From assembly GCA_951813395.1 (NCBI GenBank), contig OX638356.1, forward strand, positions 1,033,340-1,097,339: a DNA stretch of 64,000 nt, in the 5' to 3' direction. A model generated the notes under the pieces. The model searched no databases, was not told the origin of the DNA, and worked only from the letters and a program-made list of their open reading frames with translations. Position 1 is the first letter of the stretch; every line of letters begins with the position of its first letter. Source of the stretch: Longimicrobiales bacterium (lineage in GTDB: Bacteria; Gemmatimonadota; Gemmatimonadetes; Longimicrobiales; Gaopeijiaceae). Made by a program: the position numbers and the translations under genes. Positions 58,855 to 64,000 of this stretch are shown in pieces.

Positions 58855-59281
58855 GGTGTGGTTGGGCGGGGGTGGGGGGTGGCGGTGTGGGCCGGCGGGG
58901 AGGCCGCTCTGCCCGGTGAACATAATAGGGGCGTGGGGTTGCGCCACTGGGTGGAGGGCGTTATCGACAGTGGTGCGGGTGCGCTGGCACCACGCGATCA
59001 AGACACTCAGGGCCAGGGTTGCTGGGAGAGGAGGGAAACATATGTGCCCACCCACCCAGCCACCCACCCACCCACCCTGACCATTGGTTCGAGCCGGTGA
59101 AACATTTCGCCATTGTCATGGTGCCCGTTATAAACAGAGGAGGCGACAGTCGCTTCCTGTCGATTGAAAGAAAGGCCACGGAGATGAGAAAGGTGTCCGC
59201 GATGGCGGAGCAACTCCAGTTGCCATGCGTCAGCAGCTTCGAGAGACGGGGCCGACGAATGAGGCAGGATAAAGTGAAACC
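58855..59281. other. intergenic region between divergent operons
   Basis: These 427 bp separate the minus-strand transporter operon from the plus-strand 59282 cassette. The left end has a G-run block on the plus strand (GGCGGGGGTGGGGGGTGG), and the middle holds the CCCA tandem tract. A TATAAA (59129-59134) lies about 150 bp before the plus-strand genes but has no good -35 at proper spacing. A 33-codon frame (59184-59285) overlapping the next start as ATGA is too short to support as a gene. Confidence 0.5.
59047..59077 (-). repeat. CCCA tandem tract / G-quadruplex motif
   Basis: The plus strand reads CCCA repeated, with one degenerate unit. On the minus strand this gives seven GGG tracts plus one GG, mostly separated by single T, including an uninterrupted (GGGT)3GGG at 59063-59077. 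Single-nucleotide loops give the most stable class of G-quadruplex. It lies about 200 bp upstream of the sodium-dependent transporter start, on that gene's sense strand. Confidence 0.85.
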
Positions 59282-59791
59282 ATGAAGCACCACATCGCAG
59301 CTCTGCGAAAGCATAGGAGCCCTTGGTGGTTTACAGCTGTTCTATTGCTGGCATGCCTCCTGTTCTCAACTAATAGCTTGAGGGAGAGGGCGGGTGTCCG
59401 AGAGTTTCGGTCTCACATTGCCGAAATAGCATCGGAGGGCGGGGGAGTCCTGCTCGTCATGTCGCCAGCGGATTGCATGGCCGCAGCTAACGCCGCCGGT
59501 ATAGTGGCTGCTAGACTTGAAAGTGAGGGCTTCCCTACAAGGGGGCTCGTAATCAGAGACTGGGTGGATAAGGCGGCCTTAAAAGCTGTCTTGGACTCTG
59601 GCAACCACCGATTTCCACATGTCCCCATTGGAGCACGCGGAGCTATTGCGTTTATCGGTCGAGGCGGAACCCCGGTAGCTATTGGGGTCGCCTCGGACGG
59701 GTCGGCTGTGGTTGTAGAGCGCTTCGGCGGTGCCGGGGTGGCAGATGCCACGGCTCTCGGGCAACGACTTCTTCGTGCGGTTGGCGGGTAG
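59282..59791 (+). CDS. membrane-anchored protein, possibly thioredoxin-like fold
   Basis: 169 residues. An N-terminal anchor (WWFTAVLLLACLLFS) is followed by a domain with VLLVMSPADCMAAANA, then a beta-alpha pattern and GAIAFIGRGGTPVAIG. The order resembles TlpA/peroxiredoxin-like folds where a strand ends in a Cys, but only one Cys is present, so redox activity is doubtful. No family was recognised with certainty. The gene starts a run of overlapping or closely spaced genes of lower GC content than the rest of the window. Confidence 0.65.
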   Translation: MKHHIAALRKHRSPWWFTAVLLLACLLFSTNSLRERAGVREFRSHIAEIASEGGGVLLVMSPADCMAAANAAGIVAARLESEGFPTRGLVIRDWVDKAALKAVLDSGNHRFPHVPIGARGAIAFIGRGGTPVAIGVASDGSAVVVERFGGAGVADATALGQRLLRAVGG

Positions 59792-59798
59792 GCAAGTG

Positions 59799-60836
59799 AT
59801 GCGGTGGACGAGAGTGAGAGTTGCGGTGGTGCTGCCAGCTCTATTGGCGTGTGATAGGGAACCGCCCCTTGCGAACTATCCGCCGAAGAACCTCTTTGAA
59901 CGTGGCGCGGGTGAGCGAACGCTTGAGCGCCCCGGGTTCGATACCCTGTGGACCTATGGTCGCGGAGACTCCGTGCTTGCGAGCGCTTTGCAAGTTGAAG
60001 CTTTCCCTGGCGGAGATGCCGCGATCCTCGATGTCCTGGATCAGAAGATTCACCGGATTGGTCCTAGTGGCCTAGTTTGGTCTTGGGGACGGACGGGAGA
60101 GGGTCCTCAAGAGATTCGAAACGTGCGTTCCATGACCATCAACCATCGCGGCGAAGTGGTCCTTGCAGATTCCAAGAACCGACGACTGGTGTGGCTGTCA
60201 TCGACCGGAGAGTGGTTACGTGAGGTGCCGACGGAACTCCCACGGGCTGGGGGGCAGTGGCTGAATGGTGTAGTGGTCGGTATCGTCGCGCTAGAGACTG
60301 GGGACTATGTGCTTGCTCGAGACGGCGCGGAACCTTGGGTTATCGTCTCAGAGGCTGGAGATGTAGTGGGGGTCGTCCCGTCTCCGTGGACCGGGTTCGG
60401 GGAAATGCACTCGCTGCAGACCCATGGTAAGGTGACGGGTGGCAGCGCTGATCGGTGGGTGTTCGGCTTTGCGGTCGGCAACGGGTTTTTCTTGTTCGAG
60501 GGTGGAGAGGCGCGGAGTTCCCATCCTTATGCTGAGCATTTCGACTTCCCACCTGTGGTTGGTTCTGTGTTGCCATCCGGCCATTTCCAGCTTTCTTTCC
60601 CGTACCGCCCGCCGCGCGCGGCACAAGATATGACGATGAGAGCAGACACCCTACTCGTCCTAGTGCGCGACTGGATGCTTGATCGCTATGCCTTGGGTAC
60701 GGGCAGCTACATAGGGACGGTGGTTCTTCCTGGTCCTGCTAGAGGTGTTGCCGTGTCCGGTGATACCTTGTTGGTCATAGATGCCGTGGGGATGTTCCCT
60801 GCGGTTATTGCACTTCAGCAGAAAGAGAAACGATGA
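59799..60836 (+). CDS. six-bladed beta-propeller lipoprotein
   Basis: 345 residues with a lipobox LLAC near residue 17. Propeller-like repeats include FPGGDAAILDVLDQKIHRIG, GEVVLADSKNRRLVWLS and GDTLLVIDAVGMFPAVI, similar to the 6-bladed (BF3164-like) lipoproteins of Bacteroidota and Gemmatimonadota. Function unknown, probably ligand binding. ATG 59799 follows the previous stop by 7 bp; GTG 59796 is an alternative. Its stop overlaps the next gene (ATGA). Confidence 0.75.
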   Translation: MRWTRVRVAVVLPALLACDREPPLANYPPKNLFERGAGERTLERPGFDTLWTYGRGDSVLASALQVEAFPGGDAAILDVLDQKIHRIGPSGLVWSWGRTGEGPQEIRNVRSMTINHRGEVVLADSKNRRLVWLSSTGEWLREVPTELPRAGGQWLNGVVVGIVALETGDYVLARDGAEPWVIVSEAGDVVGVVPSPWTGFGEMHSLQTHGKVTGGSADRWVFGFAVGNGFFLFEGGEARSSHPYAEHFDFPPVVGSVLPSGHFQLSFPYRPPRAAQDMTMRADTLLVLVRDWMLDRYALGTGSYIGTVVLPGPARGVAVSGDTLLVIDAVGMFPAVIALQQKEKR

Positions 60837-61075
60837 AAAAGGCAATGAAAACCTGTCTGCTGGCGCTGTTCGCGCTGGCCGTTCTGACCGTGGCTGTCAC
60901 GGAAGGTGGATCCCAGGGACCGGCTCCGCTTGGCTGCAATGGATCAGACGACCTGTGCAACCACGTGTGCACCTGCGATTGGTCCGGGTCGGGAAACGCC
61001 TGCGTCCCACGCGCAGGGGAGGCCGAGTGCATCGCCCTTTGGGAAGATGGACCACCGCCGCACCCCTCCCCGTGA
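60833..61075 (+). CDS. cysteine-rich secreted microprotein
   Basis: 80 residues. A signal peptide (MKKAMKTCLLALFALAVLTVAV) leads to a mature part of about 55 residues with six cysteines (GCNGSDDLCNHVCTCDW, then NACVP and EAEC), then a Pro/His-rich tail. The spacing suggests two or three disulfides; no known family was recognised. The ATG overlaps the propeller lipoprotein stop, so it is translated with it. It might be a surface partner or a secreted peptide. Confidence 0.65.
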   Translation: MKKAMKTCLLALFALAVLTVAVTEGGSQGPAPLGCNGSDDLCNHVCTCDWSGSGNACVPRAGEAECIALWEDGPPPHPSP

Positions 61076-61465
61076 TGGTTGCCCCAAGCGGAGGCGGGTC
61101 GGGCTACCCGCAACGCCTTCGCCCCAGTCGTCTGGTACGCCCGTCGGCGGTTTCCAACGATGTACGCCAGCCTTGATCGGCAGGTGGGAAACCGAGCACT
61201 TCCGGCTACTCCGACGGTTGAGATCGGGCGTCCAGAGAGCGAAAAATGCTGAGCAAGCAAATGTGCGCCCGTCGAAGCTGCCCTCTCGCGCGGTGGCCCA
61301 AGTGCAATCTGCCGCTCGGCTGGTTGTGCGGCGCGGCAACTTGGGTTTCAGGAGAAAACGCTACATGCTGGCAATTCATACATGGAGATGTCCCGTTGGC
61401 GGGATCGCCAGGTACGAGGTCCTGCTCAGCTGATGATGGTCGTAGTGAAACGGAGAGCTTGCCCA
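61076..61465. other. 390 bp without a convincing gene
   Basis: Nothing well supported was seen. One 75-codon frame (61246-61473) is open, has seven cysteines, and begins MLSKQMCARRSC, but lacks a ribosome site and overlaps the next gene's start. No hairpin with a T-tract was found. Confidence 0.5.
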
Positions 61466-63181
61466 ATGCCTGACTTCACTTCGCGAGAGGGCACCCGTGC
61501 TTCGAAGTCGGCCTTCATGGTGTTGACGCTGGTGGCCACTGGCAGCCTGTTCGCCCCGCAGGGCGTTGCACAGGTCATCAACGGCGTCGTCGTTGACTCG
61601 GCATCGCATGTTCCGGTCCCGGGAGCACTCGTCTCGCTAGTCGATAAGGACGGCCGCGACCTTCAGCGATTCCTGGTCGATGCGGACGGATCGTTCCGAT
61701 TCCTGGTTGCCGGGCCACCAGGCGCCTACAGCGTGCGGGGAGAGCGTATCGGGCTGTCCACCACAACGGTGGGCGCCTTCGATCTGGGGCCGATGGACAC
61801 AGTCACGATCCGGATCGTGCTCGGGCAGCGTCCAATCGCCCTGGCGGGGATCGAGGCTTCGGGAGAAAGGCGTTGTGAGCTGCGCGCCTCCGCCGGCGAG
61901 GCAACCCACAGGGTATGGGAAGGGGCGCGGAAGATGCTGCTGGCGGTTGGCACGGCAGAATCCGCCGGCCGGTACGTCTACGATCTCGAGAGACATGTCC
62001 GGGAGCTTGAACCGCGTTCCCTGAAGATCCGCAGTGAAAGGCGCACGCGTACGCGATCAACGGACGGACGGCCGATCAGGAGCCGTCCCGTGGAACTGCT
62101 CGTCGCCGACGGCTGGGTTGTCGGCGATGGGGGAGGGTACCGCTATTTCGCACCCGACGCGCACACGCTGCTTTCCGATTCGTTCCTCGCCACGCACTGC
62201 CTGCGGCTACGCGCCCGCGACGACTCGCGCCCCGACCTGGTCGGATTGGAGTTTGAGCCCGTTAGCATCCATTCGGGGCGCGCCGACATCGAGGGTGTCC
62301 TTTGGCTGTCGCGCGAGACTGGCGAAGTCCTCTGGCTTGACTTCGGCTACACCGGACTGCCCGGGCTTGCGGCAGAGCATCGAAGCGATCAGATCGGCGG
62401 TCGCGTCGAATTCCTCGGCGTGCCCGACGGCGGATGGATCGTGTCGAAGTGGCATATCAGAATGCCGATGATGATCGAAGAGGTTGACGGGCTCTTCGGG
62501 GGCCGCCGGACGAGTCTGGCCGGAATCCGGGAGGAAGGGGGCCGGGTTCGGCAGGCGCTGCGACGCGGCACGGGACGGGTGGCCTACGCCGAGCGGTCAG
62601 GGACGGTGGCCGGGAAGGTCGCGGGAGGCGCCCCTGGGGACAGAGTAGCCCTCGTGGGCATCGGTATCGACGCGGCGGTTGACGAGAACGGGAGCTTTGC
62701 CATGGCCGGGGTTTCCGAGGGAAGCTATCGACTTGCCTACCTTCGTCCTTCTCTACTGGGGCTGGATCGTGAATACGTCGTGGCGAACGCCACGGTTGTG
62801 GCCGGCGACACTGCGACAGTGCGCTTCGAGGTCCCTTCCCGGCAGCGCGTGCTGGCTGCGGCGTGCCAGGTGGGGGAGTTGAACCCGGCGTTGGGAGTCT
62901 TGCTCGGTGACGTCTCCGATGCGGGCGGTCGCACGCTCGAGGGCATCAAGGTGGTGGCCGAGTGGGTCGAGGTGCGCGACATTGGCGACAGAATGCGTGC
63001 CGAAGCCCGCAGGGAGGAGACCATGACGAATCGCCTCGGCGAGTTCCGCATCTGCGGCATCCGGGCCGATGGTAACACTATTGCCGTGACCGTCGGTACC
63101 GGCGCGGAGCGTGCCACGAGAGAGGTGGTGCTGTCGCCGGAGGGGCCCGTCGGAAGGCTGTCGCTCACGCTCGGAAGGTAG
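61466..63181 (+). CDS. secreted carboxypeptidase-regulatory-like domain protein
   Basis: About 571 residues. A signal peptide (AFMVLTLVATGSLFAPQGVAQ) precedes a carboxypeptidase-D regulatory-like domain (VINGVVVDSASHVPVPGALVSLVD near residue 38), then a long middle region with ERRCELRAS, VWEGARKML and FAPDAHTLLSDSFLATHC, and a second small beta domain near 400. It lacks the TonB-dependent receptor barrel. Function unknown. ATG 61466 is preferred because GGAGAG lies 8 bp upstream; earlier in-frame ATGs at 61433 and 61436 exist. Confidence 0.75.
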   Translation: MPDFTSREGTRASKSAFMVLTLVATGSLFAPQGVAQVINGVVVDSASHVPVPGALVSLVDKDGRDLQRFLVDADGSFRFLVAGPPGAYSVRGERIGLSTTTVGAFDLGPMDTVTIRIVLGQRPIALAGIEASGERRCELRASAGEATHRVWEGARKMLLAVGTAESAGRYVYDLERHVRELEPRSLKIRSERRTRTRSTDGRPIRSRPVELLVADGWVVGDGGGYRYFAPDAHTLLSDSFLATHCLRLRARDDSRPDLVGLEFEPVSIHSGRADIEGVLWLSRETGEVLWLDFGYTGLPGLAAEHRSDQIGGRVEFLGVPDGGWIVSKWHIRMPMMIEEVDGLFGGRRTSLAGIREEGGRVRQALRRGTGRVAYAERSGTVAGKVAGGAPGDRVALVGIGIDAAVDENGSFAMAGVSEGSYRLAYLRPSLLGLDREYVVANATVVAGDTATVRFEVPSRQRVLAAACQVGELNPALGVLLGDVSDAGGRTLEGIKVVAEWVEVRDIGDRMRAEARREETMTNRLGEFRICGIRADGNTIAVTVGTGAERATREVVLSPEGPVGRLSLTLGR

Positions 63182-63278: not shown

Positions 63279-64000
63279 ATGGCGACAAGGTTGTCCATGA
63301 ACAGTACCAGACCACTTCCGCTCCTGGCCGTTCTCTGGCTCTTTGCCGGCGTCCCCCAATCCGCCAGGGCGCAGGTGGTCCGTGGCAGGCTGGTCGACGG
63401 CGTTGGAGGAAACGGGATCAGCGGCGCCATGGTAAGCCTCGTGGATCGAAGTGCCCGGACGACAGAGCAGGCAATCACGCGCAGCAGCGGCCTTTTCCAA
63501 CTTCGGGCCGCCAACCCCGGCGAGTACCGCCTCAGGGCCGACCGGATCGGTTACGCCACGATCTTCTCCGACTTCTTCGGCGTGGGCGCCGCGGACACGC
63601 TGACGATCGACTTGGAGGCACGGATCGAACCGGTCTCCCTGGAGGGGATCGAAGCGGAGGCCGATCGCCGGTGCCGCGTTCGCCCGGAGGAGGGTTTGGC
63701 CGTTGCTCGCGTATGGGAGGAGGCACGGAAAGCCCTCGCGGCTGCCGCATGGACCCAGGAACGGGGACTGTATCGGTACCAGGTGCTCCGGATCAAGCGC
63801 CGGTTGGACGACAGGGGCCGGCGGGTGGAGCGTGAAGACCGCTTTCACAGCCGGATGTCGGCCCCGGCCCCCTACGTTTCCCGTCCCGCAGACTCATTGT
63901 TGGCCGAGGGATTCGCGCGTTTCTCGACCGGGGAGTCCGAGTTCTGGGCACCGGACGCCGACGTACTTCTCTCCGACTTCTTCCTGGACACGCACTGTTT
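63279..64000 (+). CDS. second carboxypeptidase-regulatory-like protein, cut by window end
   Basis: The frame is open from ATG 63279 (alternative ATG 63297) to the window edge, at least 240 residues. The signal peptide ends SARAQ and is followed by VVRGRLVDGVGGNGISGAMV. It is a paralog of the preceding gene: shared strings include RRCRVR, VWEEARKAL and WAPDADVLLSDFFLDTHC. The tandem arrangement indicates local duplication. Confidence 0.75.
   Translation, partial: MATRLSMNSTRPLPLLAVLWLFAGVPQSARAQVVRGRLVDGVGGNGISGAMVSLVDRSARTTEQAITRSSGLFQLRAANPGEYRLRADRIGYATIFSDFFGVGAADTLTIDLEARIEPVSLEGIEAEADRRCRVRPEEGLAVARVWEEARKALAAAAWTQERGLYRYQVLRIKRRLDDRGRRVEREDRFHSRMSAPAPYVSRPADSLLAEGFARFSTGESEFWAPDADVLLSDFFLDTHC

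Follow-up and report, generated by a model that had tools for sequence, protein, structure and literature searches.

The window, by which we mean the whole 64-kb stretch of DNA that was analyzed, contains three adjacent genes that encode a membrane-anchored thioredoxin-like (Trx-like) protein, a beta-propeller lipoprotein, and a secreted cysteine-rich microprotein. This cassette diverges from, yet belongs to, a module that is widespread in Gemmatimonadota and lacks annotation. The module itself is well supported and suggests that disulfide-bonded peptides are made and retained by a system not described before. We give about even odds (a probability of roughly 0.5) to the reading that the microprotein is exported, is held together by disulfide bonds, and has a monothiol thioredoxin-fold maturation factor of its own as well as a propeller partner. 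An unannotated microprotein family thereby gains a defined set of genetic partners, which makes its chemistry testable, and the cassette offers a natural case of a single-cysteine thioredoxin fold alongside a cysteine-rich candidate substrate and an NHL propeller. The arrangement is also relevant to NHLRC2 (human disease) and SOQ1 (plant photoprotection), in which Trx and NHL parts are fused, and to the way in which these proteins may deal with their targets. No paper on a module of thioredoxin, propeller, and cysteine-rich peptide was among the titles listed in the open-licence literature, which is weak evidence that the module is unpublished.

Organization of the cassette

The genome of the window is a single contig of 4.09 Mb. 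All three genes lie on the plus strand, in the order Trx-like, propeller lipoprotein, and microprotein (Table 1). The stop codon of the Trx-like gene, which ends at 59791, is separated by 7 bases from the ATG of the propeller gene at 59799, and the stop codon of the propeller gene shares bases with the ATG of the microprotein gene (AAACGATGA, an ATGA overlap). The preliminary description had presented the genes as a coupled three-gene cassette, less GC-rich than the rest, in which the microprotein gene overlaps a propeller lipoprotein gene. These points hold: the overlap and the lipobox (LLAC) are present, the GC content is 0.595 in the cassette vs 0.679 in the window, and coupling is borne out by the overlap, the 7-base gap, the related cassettes elsewhere, and the co-occurrence of Trx-like and microprotein genes described below. 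No model of Pfam (E up to 1) or NCBIfam (E up to 5) matched any of the three window proteins, and PADLOC (E up to 0.1) and PHROGs (E up to 0.01) returned nothing for them. A scan for promoters and terminators gave one promoter-like site and zero terminator-like sites, no more than in shuffled sequences.

Table 1 Genes of the cassette and features within them
Feature	Position	Strand	Description or basis
Trx-like gene	59282..59791	+	Membrane-anchored thioredoxin-fold protein, 169 aa, single conserved cysteine at the active-site position, no CXXC
N-terminal transmembrane segment of Trx-like protein (approximate)	59336..59389	+	Hydrophobic stretch; within model helix 14-51
Cys65 codon, conserved cysteine of xDC motif	59474..59476	+	Invariant in 10/10 same-genus rows and 24/24 of the wider set
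Thr130-Pro131, thioredoxin cis-proline position	59669..59674	+	Pro131 invariant in 24/24, Thr130 nearly so
Propeller lipoprotein gene	59799..60836	+	NHL-type beta-propeller, 345 aa; profile A2 vs PDB, AlphaFold2, Foldseek
Lipobox cysteine of propeller (lipobox LLAC, 59841-59852)	59850..59852	+	Sequence
Microprotein gene	60833..61075	+	80 aa, ATG start, six-cysteine, secreted; ATGA overlap with propeller stop
Signal peptide, residues 1-27	60833..60913	+	Sequence and alignment with relatives; cut site inferred
Mature cysteine-rich region, ~53 aa, six cysteines	60914..61072	+	Sequence; alignment A5

Co-occurrence of the three genes in Gemmatimonadota

Relatives of the propeller were found in 16 of 98 genomes, that of the window included (E up to 1e−20), and, with a propeller profile, in 38 of 395 genomes of the phylum (E up to 1e−40); profile A2 consists mostly of cassette-bearing propellers and may favor such loci in the search. 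The first search gave 30 places, one of which, a propeller fragment (G000:C1:323515), was left out, and the remaining 29 together with 24 new loci from the phylum search make up a set of 53 propeller loci. The window propeller alone, used as a query of a library of genome contigs, found no relative.

A search for the gene order in other genomes, proposed in the preliminary description, did recover related cassettes in which Trx-like and microprotein genes co-occur. Under automatic criteria, which are free of the judgment made on inspection, 27 of the 53 loci have both genes, 4 have the Trx-like gene only, 7 the microprotein gene only, and 15 neither, and the association between the two genes is significant (Fisher test, P = 8.7e−5). 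It stays significant when the loci are reduced to 35 clusters at 70% propeller identity (19, 3, 4, and 9 clusters, respectively; P = 0.002). On the reverse strand, taken as a control, a microprotein was called in 3 of 53 loci (vs 34 of 53 on the gene strand) and a Trx-like gene in 0 of 53.

Inspection changed the counts to 32 loci with both genes, 1 with the Trx-like gene only, 2 with the microprotein only, and 18 with neither. Moved to "both" were a locus whose Trx-like frame is in two pieces (L089), two loci whose Trx-like gene was recognized by eye and missed by the pattern (L161 and L168), and two with a 128-aa six-cysteine secreted protein in the slot, above the length limit (L171 and L172). 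Moved to "neither" were two loci with an unrelated 110-aa cysteine-containing protein (L081 and L085) and one with a Trx-pattern match far downstream (L095). The two loci with a peptide only are L164 and L093, the latter with its peptide 1.36 kb upstream; L077 begins 333 bases ahead of its propeller, and its place among "neither" is uncertain. The preliminary description had named homologous cassettes without the microprotein as evidence against its account, and one such case exists: L096, with a Trx-like gene, a propeller, and no visible peptide, is the sole Trx-only locus after inspection (1 of 33 inspected Trx-bearing propeller loci; 4 of 31 by the automatic criteria).

Gene order varies among the loci. 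The microprotein precedes the Trx-like gene and the propeller in L079, L082, L086, L098, L100, L154 to L163, and L165 to L168; the window shares the order Trx-like, propeller, microprotein(s) with L078, L087 to L089, L092, L097, L101, and L149; and peptides stand on both sides in L150 and L151.

With a profile of the peptides and E values up to 0.01, matches were obtained in 47 of the 395 phylum genomes; the weakest of them are probably due to chance. Reading outward from microproteins at 14 further loci, we found five with a Trx-like gene in the same module (L211, L212, L217, L219, and L222; best matches E 1.1e−13 or better), one with a weak Trx-like match (L220, E 0.015), and one with a DsbA-like protein. 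In the last of these, L215, the microprotein is followed by the DsbA-like protein, which carries CVWC and takes the place of the Trx-like gene, and then by a propeller; this DsbA-like protein scores 40 bits against PF01323 (cut-off, 25.6). Propellers are present in L215, L217, L219, and L222. No Trx-like gene was found in L214, L216, L218, L223, and L224, of which L223 and L224 have peptide matches that look like chance (E 0.004 and 0.006); L213 and L221 stop at a contig edge. A peptide can stand without a Trx-like gene (L164), with a membrane protein only (L214), or alone (L216), and these cases count against the reading proposed below. Two weak tblastn matches, of the window peptide in L094 (E 0.003) and of the window Trx-like protein in L047 (E 0.002), do not lie beside a counted propeller. 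Judged by sequence, related cassettes are present in several families of Gemmatimonadota, and the view that the three genes would form a functional unit is supported.

A family of cysteine-rich peptides and the window copy

The window microprotein has seven cysteines, one in the signal peptide (C8) and six later (C35, C42, C46, C48, C57, and C66), and is the sole ORF in the window that passes a screen for a signal-peptide-like start followed by at least four cysteines. The signal peptide and the six mature cysteines agree with the preliminary description; its mature length of 55 residues has to be revised, as alignment with relatives places the probable cut near S27/Q28 and leaves a mature part of ~53 residues. 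In an alignment of 29 peptides (A5), the core is C-x(6-8)-C; most rows also have a third cysteine, and most have a fourth with an aromatic pair directly after it. Conservation of the cysteines had been named as a check, and it is found in part: three cysteine columns are invariant in these 29 peptides, which were screened for at least four cysteines, a requirement that bears on the conservation, and the total number of cysteines varies.

Within the family, a tight core group (A4) has the pattern CGGPGE.LCKEN.SC..I.FFRQCTTTYDYW, with 44 to 94% identity to the first row and one invariant Trp. Its cysteines are single and evenly spaced, and no His or Met clusters were seen by eye. A core-group peptide occurs in nine database records, all from a Gemmatimonadetes or Gemmatimonadales bacterium. 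The nearest intact relative of the window cassette is L078, whose propeller is 50% identical and is directly followed by a six-cysteine peptide with a TTG start. The ATGA overlap of peptide and propeller recurs in L087, L088, L089, L092, and L097, and three tandem, diversified peptides stand behind one propeller in each of L087, L088, L089, and L092.

Among pairs of relatives' peptides, the five whose dS lies between 0.25 and 1 have dN/dS of 0.13, 0.17, 0.16, 0.24, and 0.25 and appear to be under purifying selection. Seven further pairs are uninformative, five of them too close (dS 0.09 or less) and two distant (dS 1.63 or saturated); three close pairs (dS 0.02 to 0.09) have dN/dS of 0.67 to 0.83, from 1 to 5 synonymous changes. 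All of these pairs come from relatives' peptides, and the window microprotein itself has no close relative. As a query of the 98 genomes, its own included, it gave elsewhere only chance-level matches (best E 0.0046).

Because the profile held most of the sequences it found, the E-value of the window peptide in the phylum search is not independent, and leave-one-out scoring is the fair test. Against a profile built without it, the window peptide scores 16.2 bits, a score reached by 7 of 2,000 shuffles of the mature part; against a profile built without it and without L078, 19.8 bits (0 of 2,000 shuffles); and against one that lacks every same-genus row, 9.0 bits (44 of 2,000 shuffles and 1 of 188 scored window ORFs). 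The window peptide is probably a divergent member of the family; its sequence ties it to the others only modestly, and much of the argument comes from its position. Given these modest scores, its membership rests on position and cysteine pattern jointly. We take the window ORF as a real gene on account of the cysteine-rich secreted genes in the same position elsewhere and of the dN/dS values of relatives. The possibility that the microprotein is an isolated orphan was considered and rejected: related cysteine-rich genes adjoin related propellers and Trx-like genes.

A thioredoxin fold with one conserved cysteine and an NHL-type propeller

The preliminary description had placed a membrane-anchored thioredoxin-like gene ahead of the propeller, and comparison of an AlphaFold2 model (pLDDT 91.8) with the PDB supports the thioredoxin fold. 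In the model, an anchor helix at the N-terminus precedes this fold, and the matches are the Mycobacterium tuberculosis DsbE-like protein and DsbF, ResA, DsbE, and CcmG, with TlpA also in the list (best Foldseek E 4.6e−5, TM about 0.5 to 0.6; VIA-align Z 11.5, 121 residues, rmsd 2.6). With a predicted thioredoxin fold and a proline at the cis-proline position, the protein appears to share the fold of the TlpA/ResA/DsbE type. A sequence-profile search of the PDB with the Trx-like set was not significant (best E 0.2), and no Pfam thioredoxin model matched any of 10 Trx-like members at E up to 1.

Across 24 aligned Trx-like proteins, only Cys65 and Pro131 are invariant, and Asp64 and Thr130 are nearly so. 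The first 10 rows, found by BLAST beside propellers, already have Cys65 and Pro131 in common; most later rows were recognized by eye, partly via the xDC...TP motif, so that the invariance in the wider set is in part a product of selection. A CXXC active site is absent, and none of the 24 rows has a second active-site cysteine; L217 has two Trx-like copies, one without any cysteine and the other with it. Having no CXXC and one conserved cysteine, the Trx-like protein cannot by itself be a classical dithiol oxidase. The earlier proposal that the first protein could assist disulfide formation is favored by the fold (AlphaFold2, PDB) and, as worded, disfavored by the active site.

The propeller is assigned to the NHL type by profile search and by fold. 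Profile A2, built from 18 propeller relatives, matched NHL domains in the PDB (E 5.5e−40, TRIM71 NHL), and the AlphaFold2 model of the window propeller (pLDDT 90.0) had NHL domains, Thin/TRIM2, as its best Foldseek matches (TMq 0.62; TMt 0.73 to Thin NHL). Single sequences match more weakly. The window propeller matched no model in a single-sequence Pfam scan, and 8 of 9 relatives had weak NHL or DUF5128 matches, among which solely the NHL score of L092 passed the cut-off; the best DUF5128 score, in L093, is 22.2 of the required 22.9 bits. The NHL model NF035926 was matched at E up to 0.1 by 16 of 18 members (best 6.8e−10), the window propeller not among them.

L212 and L214 each have a free-standing gene for a membrane protein of 146 to 168 aa, and the same domain is fused N-terminally to the propeller in L158, L160, L162, L163, and L165 to L168 (L214 protein vs fused N-termini, E 2.5e−10 to 5e−40). 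No gene of this type was seen beside the window cassette. The fusions hint that the propeller may work at the membrane. Elsewhere in the genome of the window, a cluster of propeller paralogs stands without microproteins (L047, G000:C1:312000-331000), and one of these paralogs is, by eye, apparently broken by a transposase pair.

Possible gain or loss of the Trx-like and peptide genes

The left flank of the window aligns with 17 same-genus genomes up to ~58856, the start of a transporter gene, and over the 1,500 bases that the loci covered beyond this point there is no alignment save for an 87-base match in L231. In those same-genus draft assemblies, cassettes lie on contigs other than that of the transporter gene. 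Low GC content recurs in six further cassettes of the genus (0.575 to 0.633 vs 0.646 to 0.695). A short CCCA-type tandem repeat (59047-59077) lies directly 5′ of the window cassette, close to the end of the syntenic block.

Five propellers that are 80 to 83% identical to that of L079 have neither a Trx-like nor a peptide gene (L080, L081, L083, L084, and L085), and tblastn revealed no remnant of these genes next to them; its best match (E 0.02) lay at another place on the contig. This pattern fits a gain or loss of the Trx-like and peptide genes as a pair, with a propeller that may persist alone. Viral contigs searched with the core-group peptides and plasmids searched with the Trx-like protein yielded no relative.

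Comparison with known systems

The systems closest in kind are NHLRC2/SOQ1 and MauD/MauA. With NHLRC2 and SOQ1, the cassette has in common a Trx-like fold paired with an NHL propeller (six-bladed in NHLRC2/SOQ1), and the matches of the Trx-like model include PDB 7djk, a "quenching protein" (Z 10.1, rmsd 2.9, 124 aligned) that we take to be SOQ1. The NHL part of SOQ1 is described as substrate-binding, and the Trx-like part is said to hand redox power over to a target, LCNP being one example (PMC10173003, PMC6107167). NHLRC2 is described as having a conserved cleft between its Trx-like and NHL domains, and the same paper reports no conserved neighbors in seven bacterial genomes (PMC6107167). In NHLRC2 and SOQ1, a single chain with a CCINC motif comprises both domains, whereas in the window they are encoded by two separate genes, the motif CC[IV]NC is absent, the Trx-like protein has a single conserved cysteine, and a cysteine-rich peptide gene is attached.

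The mau cluster encodes MauD/MauE, the methylamine dehydrogenase light chain MauA, and the propeller MauB, and is similar in having an anchored Trx-fold helper, a cysteine-rich small subunit, and a propeller partner. The window differs from it in having no Mau light-chain match, an NHL-type propeller, and one conserved cysteine in the Trx-like protein. Upstream of the propeller in L152 and L153, small membrane proteins stand where the Trx-like gene stands elsewhere; they look DoxX-like (by eye in L152), as MauE is. According to one report, MauD and MauE serve the maturation of methylamine dehydrogenase, and Streptomyces candidate clusters with MauE homologs (one also with a MauD homolog) have precursors with at least eight cysteines (PMC7794033).

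The membrane-anchored thioredoxins TlpA, ResA, CcmG, and DsbE/F resemble the Trx-like protein in fold and anchoring, whereas the latter lacks CXXC, has one conserved cysteine, and has no Pfam thioredoxin match. The NVEALA peptides of Bacteroidota (PF14055) pair with six-bladed DUF5128 propellers; here, too, a small secreted peptide is near a propeller, and the scores of some related propellers fall narrowly short of the DUF5128 cut-off. Membership in the NVEALA family was rejected, as PF14055 was matched neither by the 29 aligned peptides (E up to 10) nor by the window locus. No PF14055 match exceeded the cut-off in the genome of the window, and 1 of 14 control genomes had one over it. We found no paper on NVEALA in the open-licence literature.

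Proposed function and alternative explanations

We propose that the peptide would be exported by Sec and oxidized by general DsbA/VKOR machinery. In the genome of the window, a VKOR gene adjoins a DsbA-type match (C1:681332-682097), and the DsbA-type matches that exceed the cut-off number six; by these predicted genes, general oxidation is available. A single-cysteine thioredoxin fold with a cis-proline beside a cysteine-rich peptide suggests mixed-disulfide capture or isomerization, or chaperoning, and not dithiol oxidation. The anchored monothiol protein may capture reduced or misbridged peptide via a mixed disulfide or the cis-proline groove, let the right cysteines pair, and then pass the peptide on; the DsbA-like substitute in L215 supports a role of the Trx slot in the thiol chemistry of the peptide. 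By analogy with the SOQ1 NHL domain and the NHLRC2 cleft, the propeller is a likely binding partner of the peptide: as a lipoprotein of the same membrane, it could bind the folded peptide and either keep it at the envelope or hand it out. The work of the finished peptide could be that of a signal, surface contact, or competition. More tentatively, there may be an undescribed envelope system throughout Gemmatimonadota, a split bacterial counterpart of SOQ1-LCNP. Each disulfide-rich peptide would then have its own anchored monothiol thioredoxin, with an NHL propeller as acceptor that some lineages have joined to a membrane subunit, and peptides would diversify by tandem duplication while the helper is kept.

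Other explanations distribute the roles differently. The peptide might be a secreted antagonist or signal, bacteriocin-like or pheromone-like, with the propeller as its immunity protein or receptor and the Trx-like protein as just a folding aid. Tandem diversified peptides, three each behind one propeller in four loci, would suit such a role, as would the patchy presence of the module (the Trx profile was found in 14 of the 395 phylum genomes), and low GC content and loss of synteny at the cassette fit an accessory trait of competition or signaling. We nonetheless consider this reading unlikely, given that the core-group peptides are conserved to a degree unusual for antagonists, that inspection by eye of a few kilobases at the loci, on rough gene calls, showed neither a dedicated exporter nor a peptidase or maturation enzyme, and that PADLOC and PHROGs had no match for the three window proteins. 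At the other extreme, the propeller operon might simply end in an ORF that arose by chance or in a gene that has decayed, which would account for a window copy that is divergent and has no close relatives; this we regard as very improbable in view of relatives with the same place and architecture, the purifying selection in five of their pairs, and the fact that no other ORF of its kind exists in the window.

Two further alternatives invoke a redox enzyme or a metal, and we think each of them rather improbable. In the first, the cassette would encode a periplasmic redox enzyme similar to methylamine dehydrogenase: the peptide would be its small subunit (as MauA), the propeller its large subunit (as MauB), and the Trx-like protein would take the role of MauD. 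The same three kinds of parts would then be explained, including a cysteine-rich small subunit with conserved aromatics. However, the propeller is NHL-type, no Mau light-chain family was among the Pfam and NCBIfam matches of the 29 peptides at E up to 10, and the core group has only one invariant Trp; the TTQ cofactor requires two. The cysteines could instead bind copper or zinc, with the single-cysteine Trx-like protein and the propeller delivering or sensing the metal and disulfides being secondary. CC and CXC spacings occur in some members (C46-x-C48 in the window, CC in L215 and L217), and TlpA and CcmG, whose relatives serve metal and heme insertion, are both among the PDB matches of the Trx-like model. 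The evenly spaced single cysteines of the core group, its lack of His or Met clusters by eye, and the DsbA-like protein in place of the Trx-like one in L215 count against metal binding. A disulfide-bonded peptide with a monothiol maturation factor and a propeller partner is the reading that we retain.

Several neighbors of the propellers deserve mention in their own right. In L169, whose propeller has neither a Trx-like nor a microprotein gene, two further genes were seen by eye ~0.5 to 1.8 kb upstream of the propeller, one for a DsbA-like protein (CPHC) and, after it, one for a VKOR-like membrane protein. In L081 and L085, ~630 bp after the propeller, there is an identical 110-aa secreted-looking, acidic, Thr-rich protein with five cysteines, followed by a 354-aa protein with six. 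In the window itself, two tandem secreted-looking proteins that are 35% identical by BLAST are encoded at 61382-63181 and 63297-64000, and the first of them contains a CarboxypepD_reg domain (PF13620).
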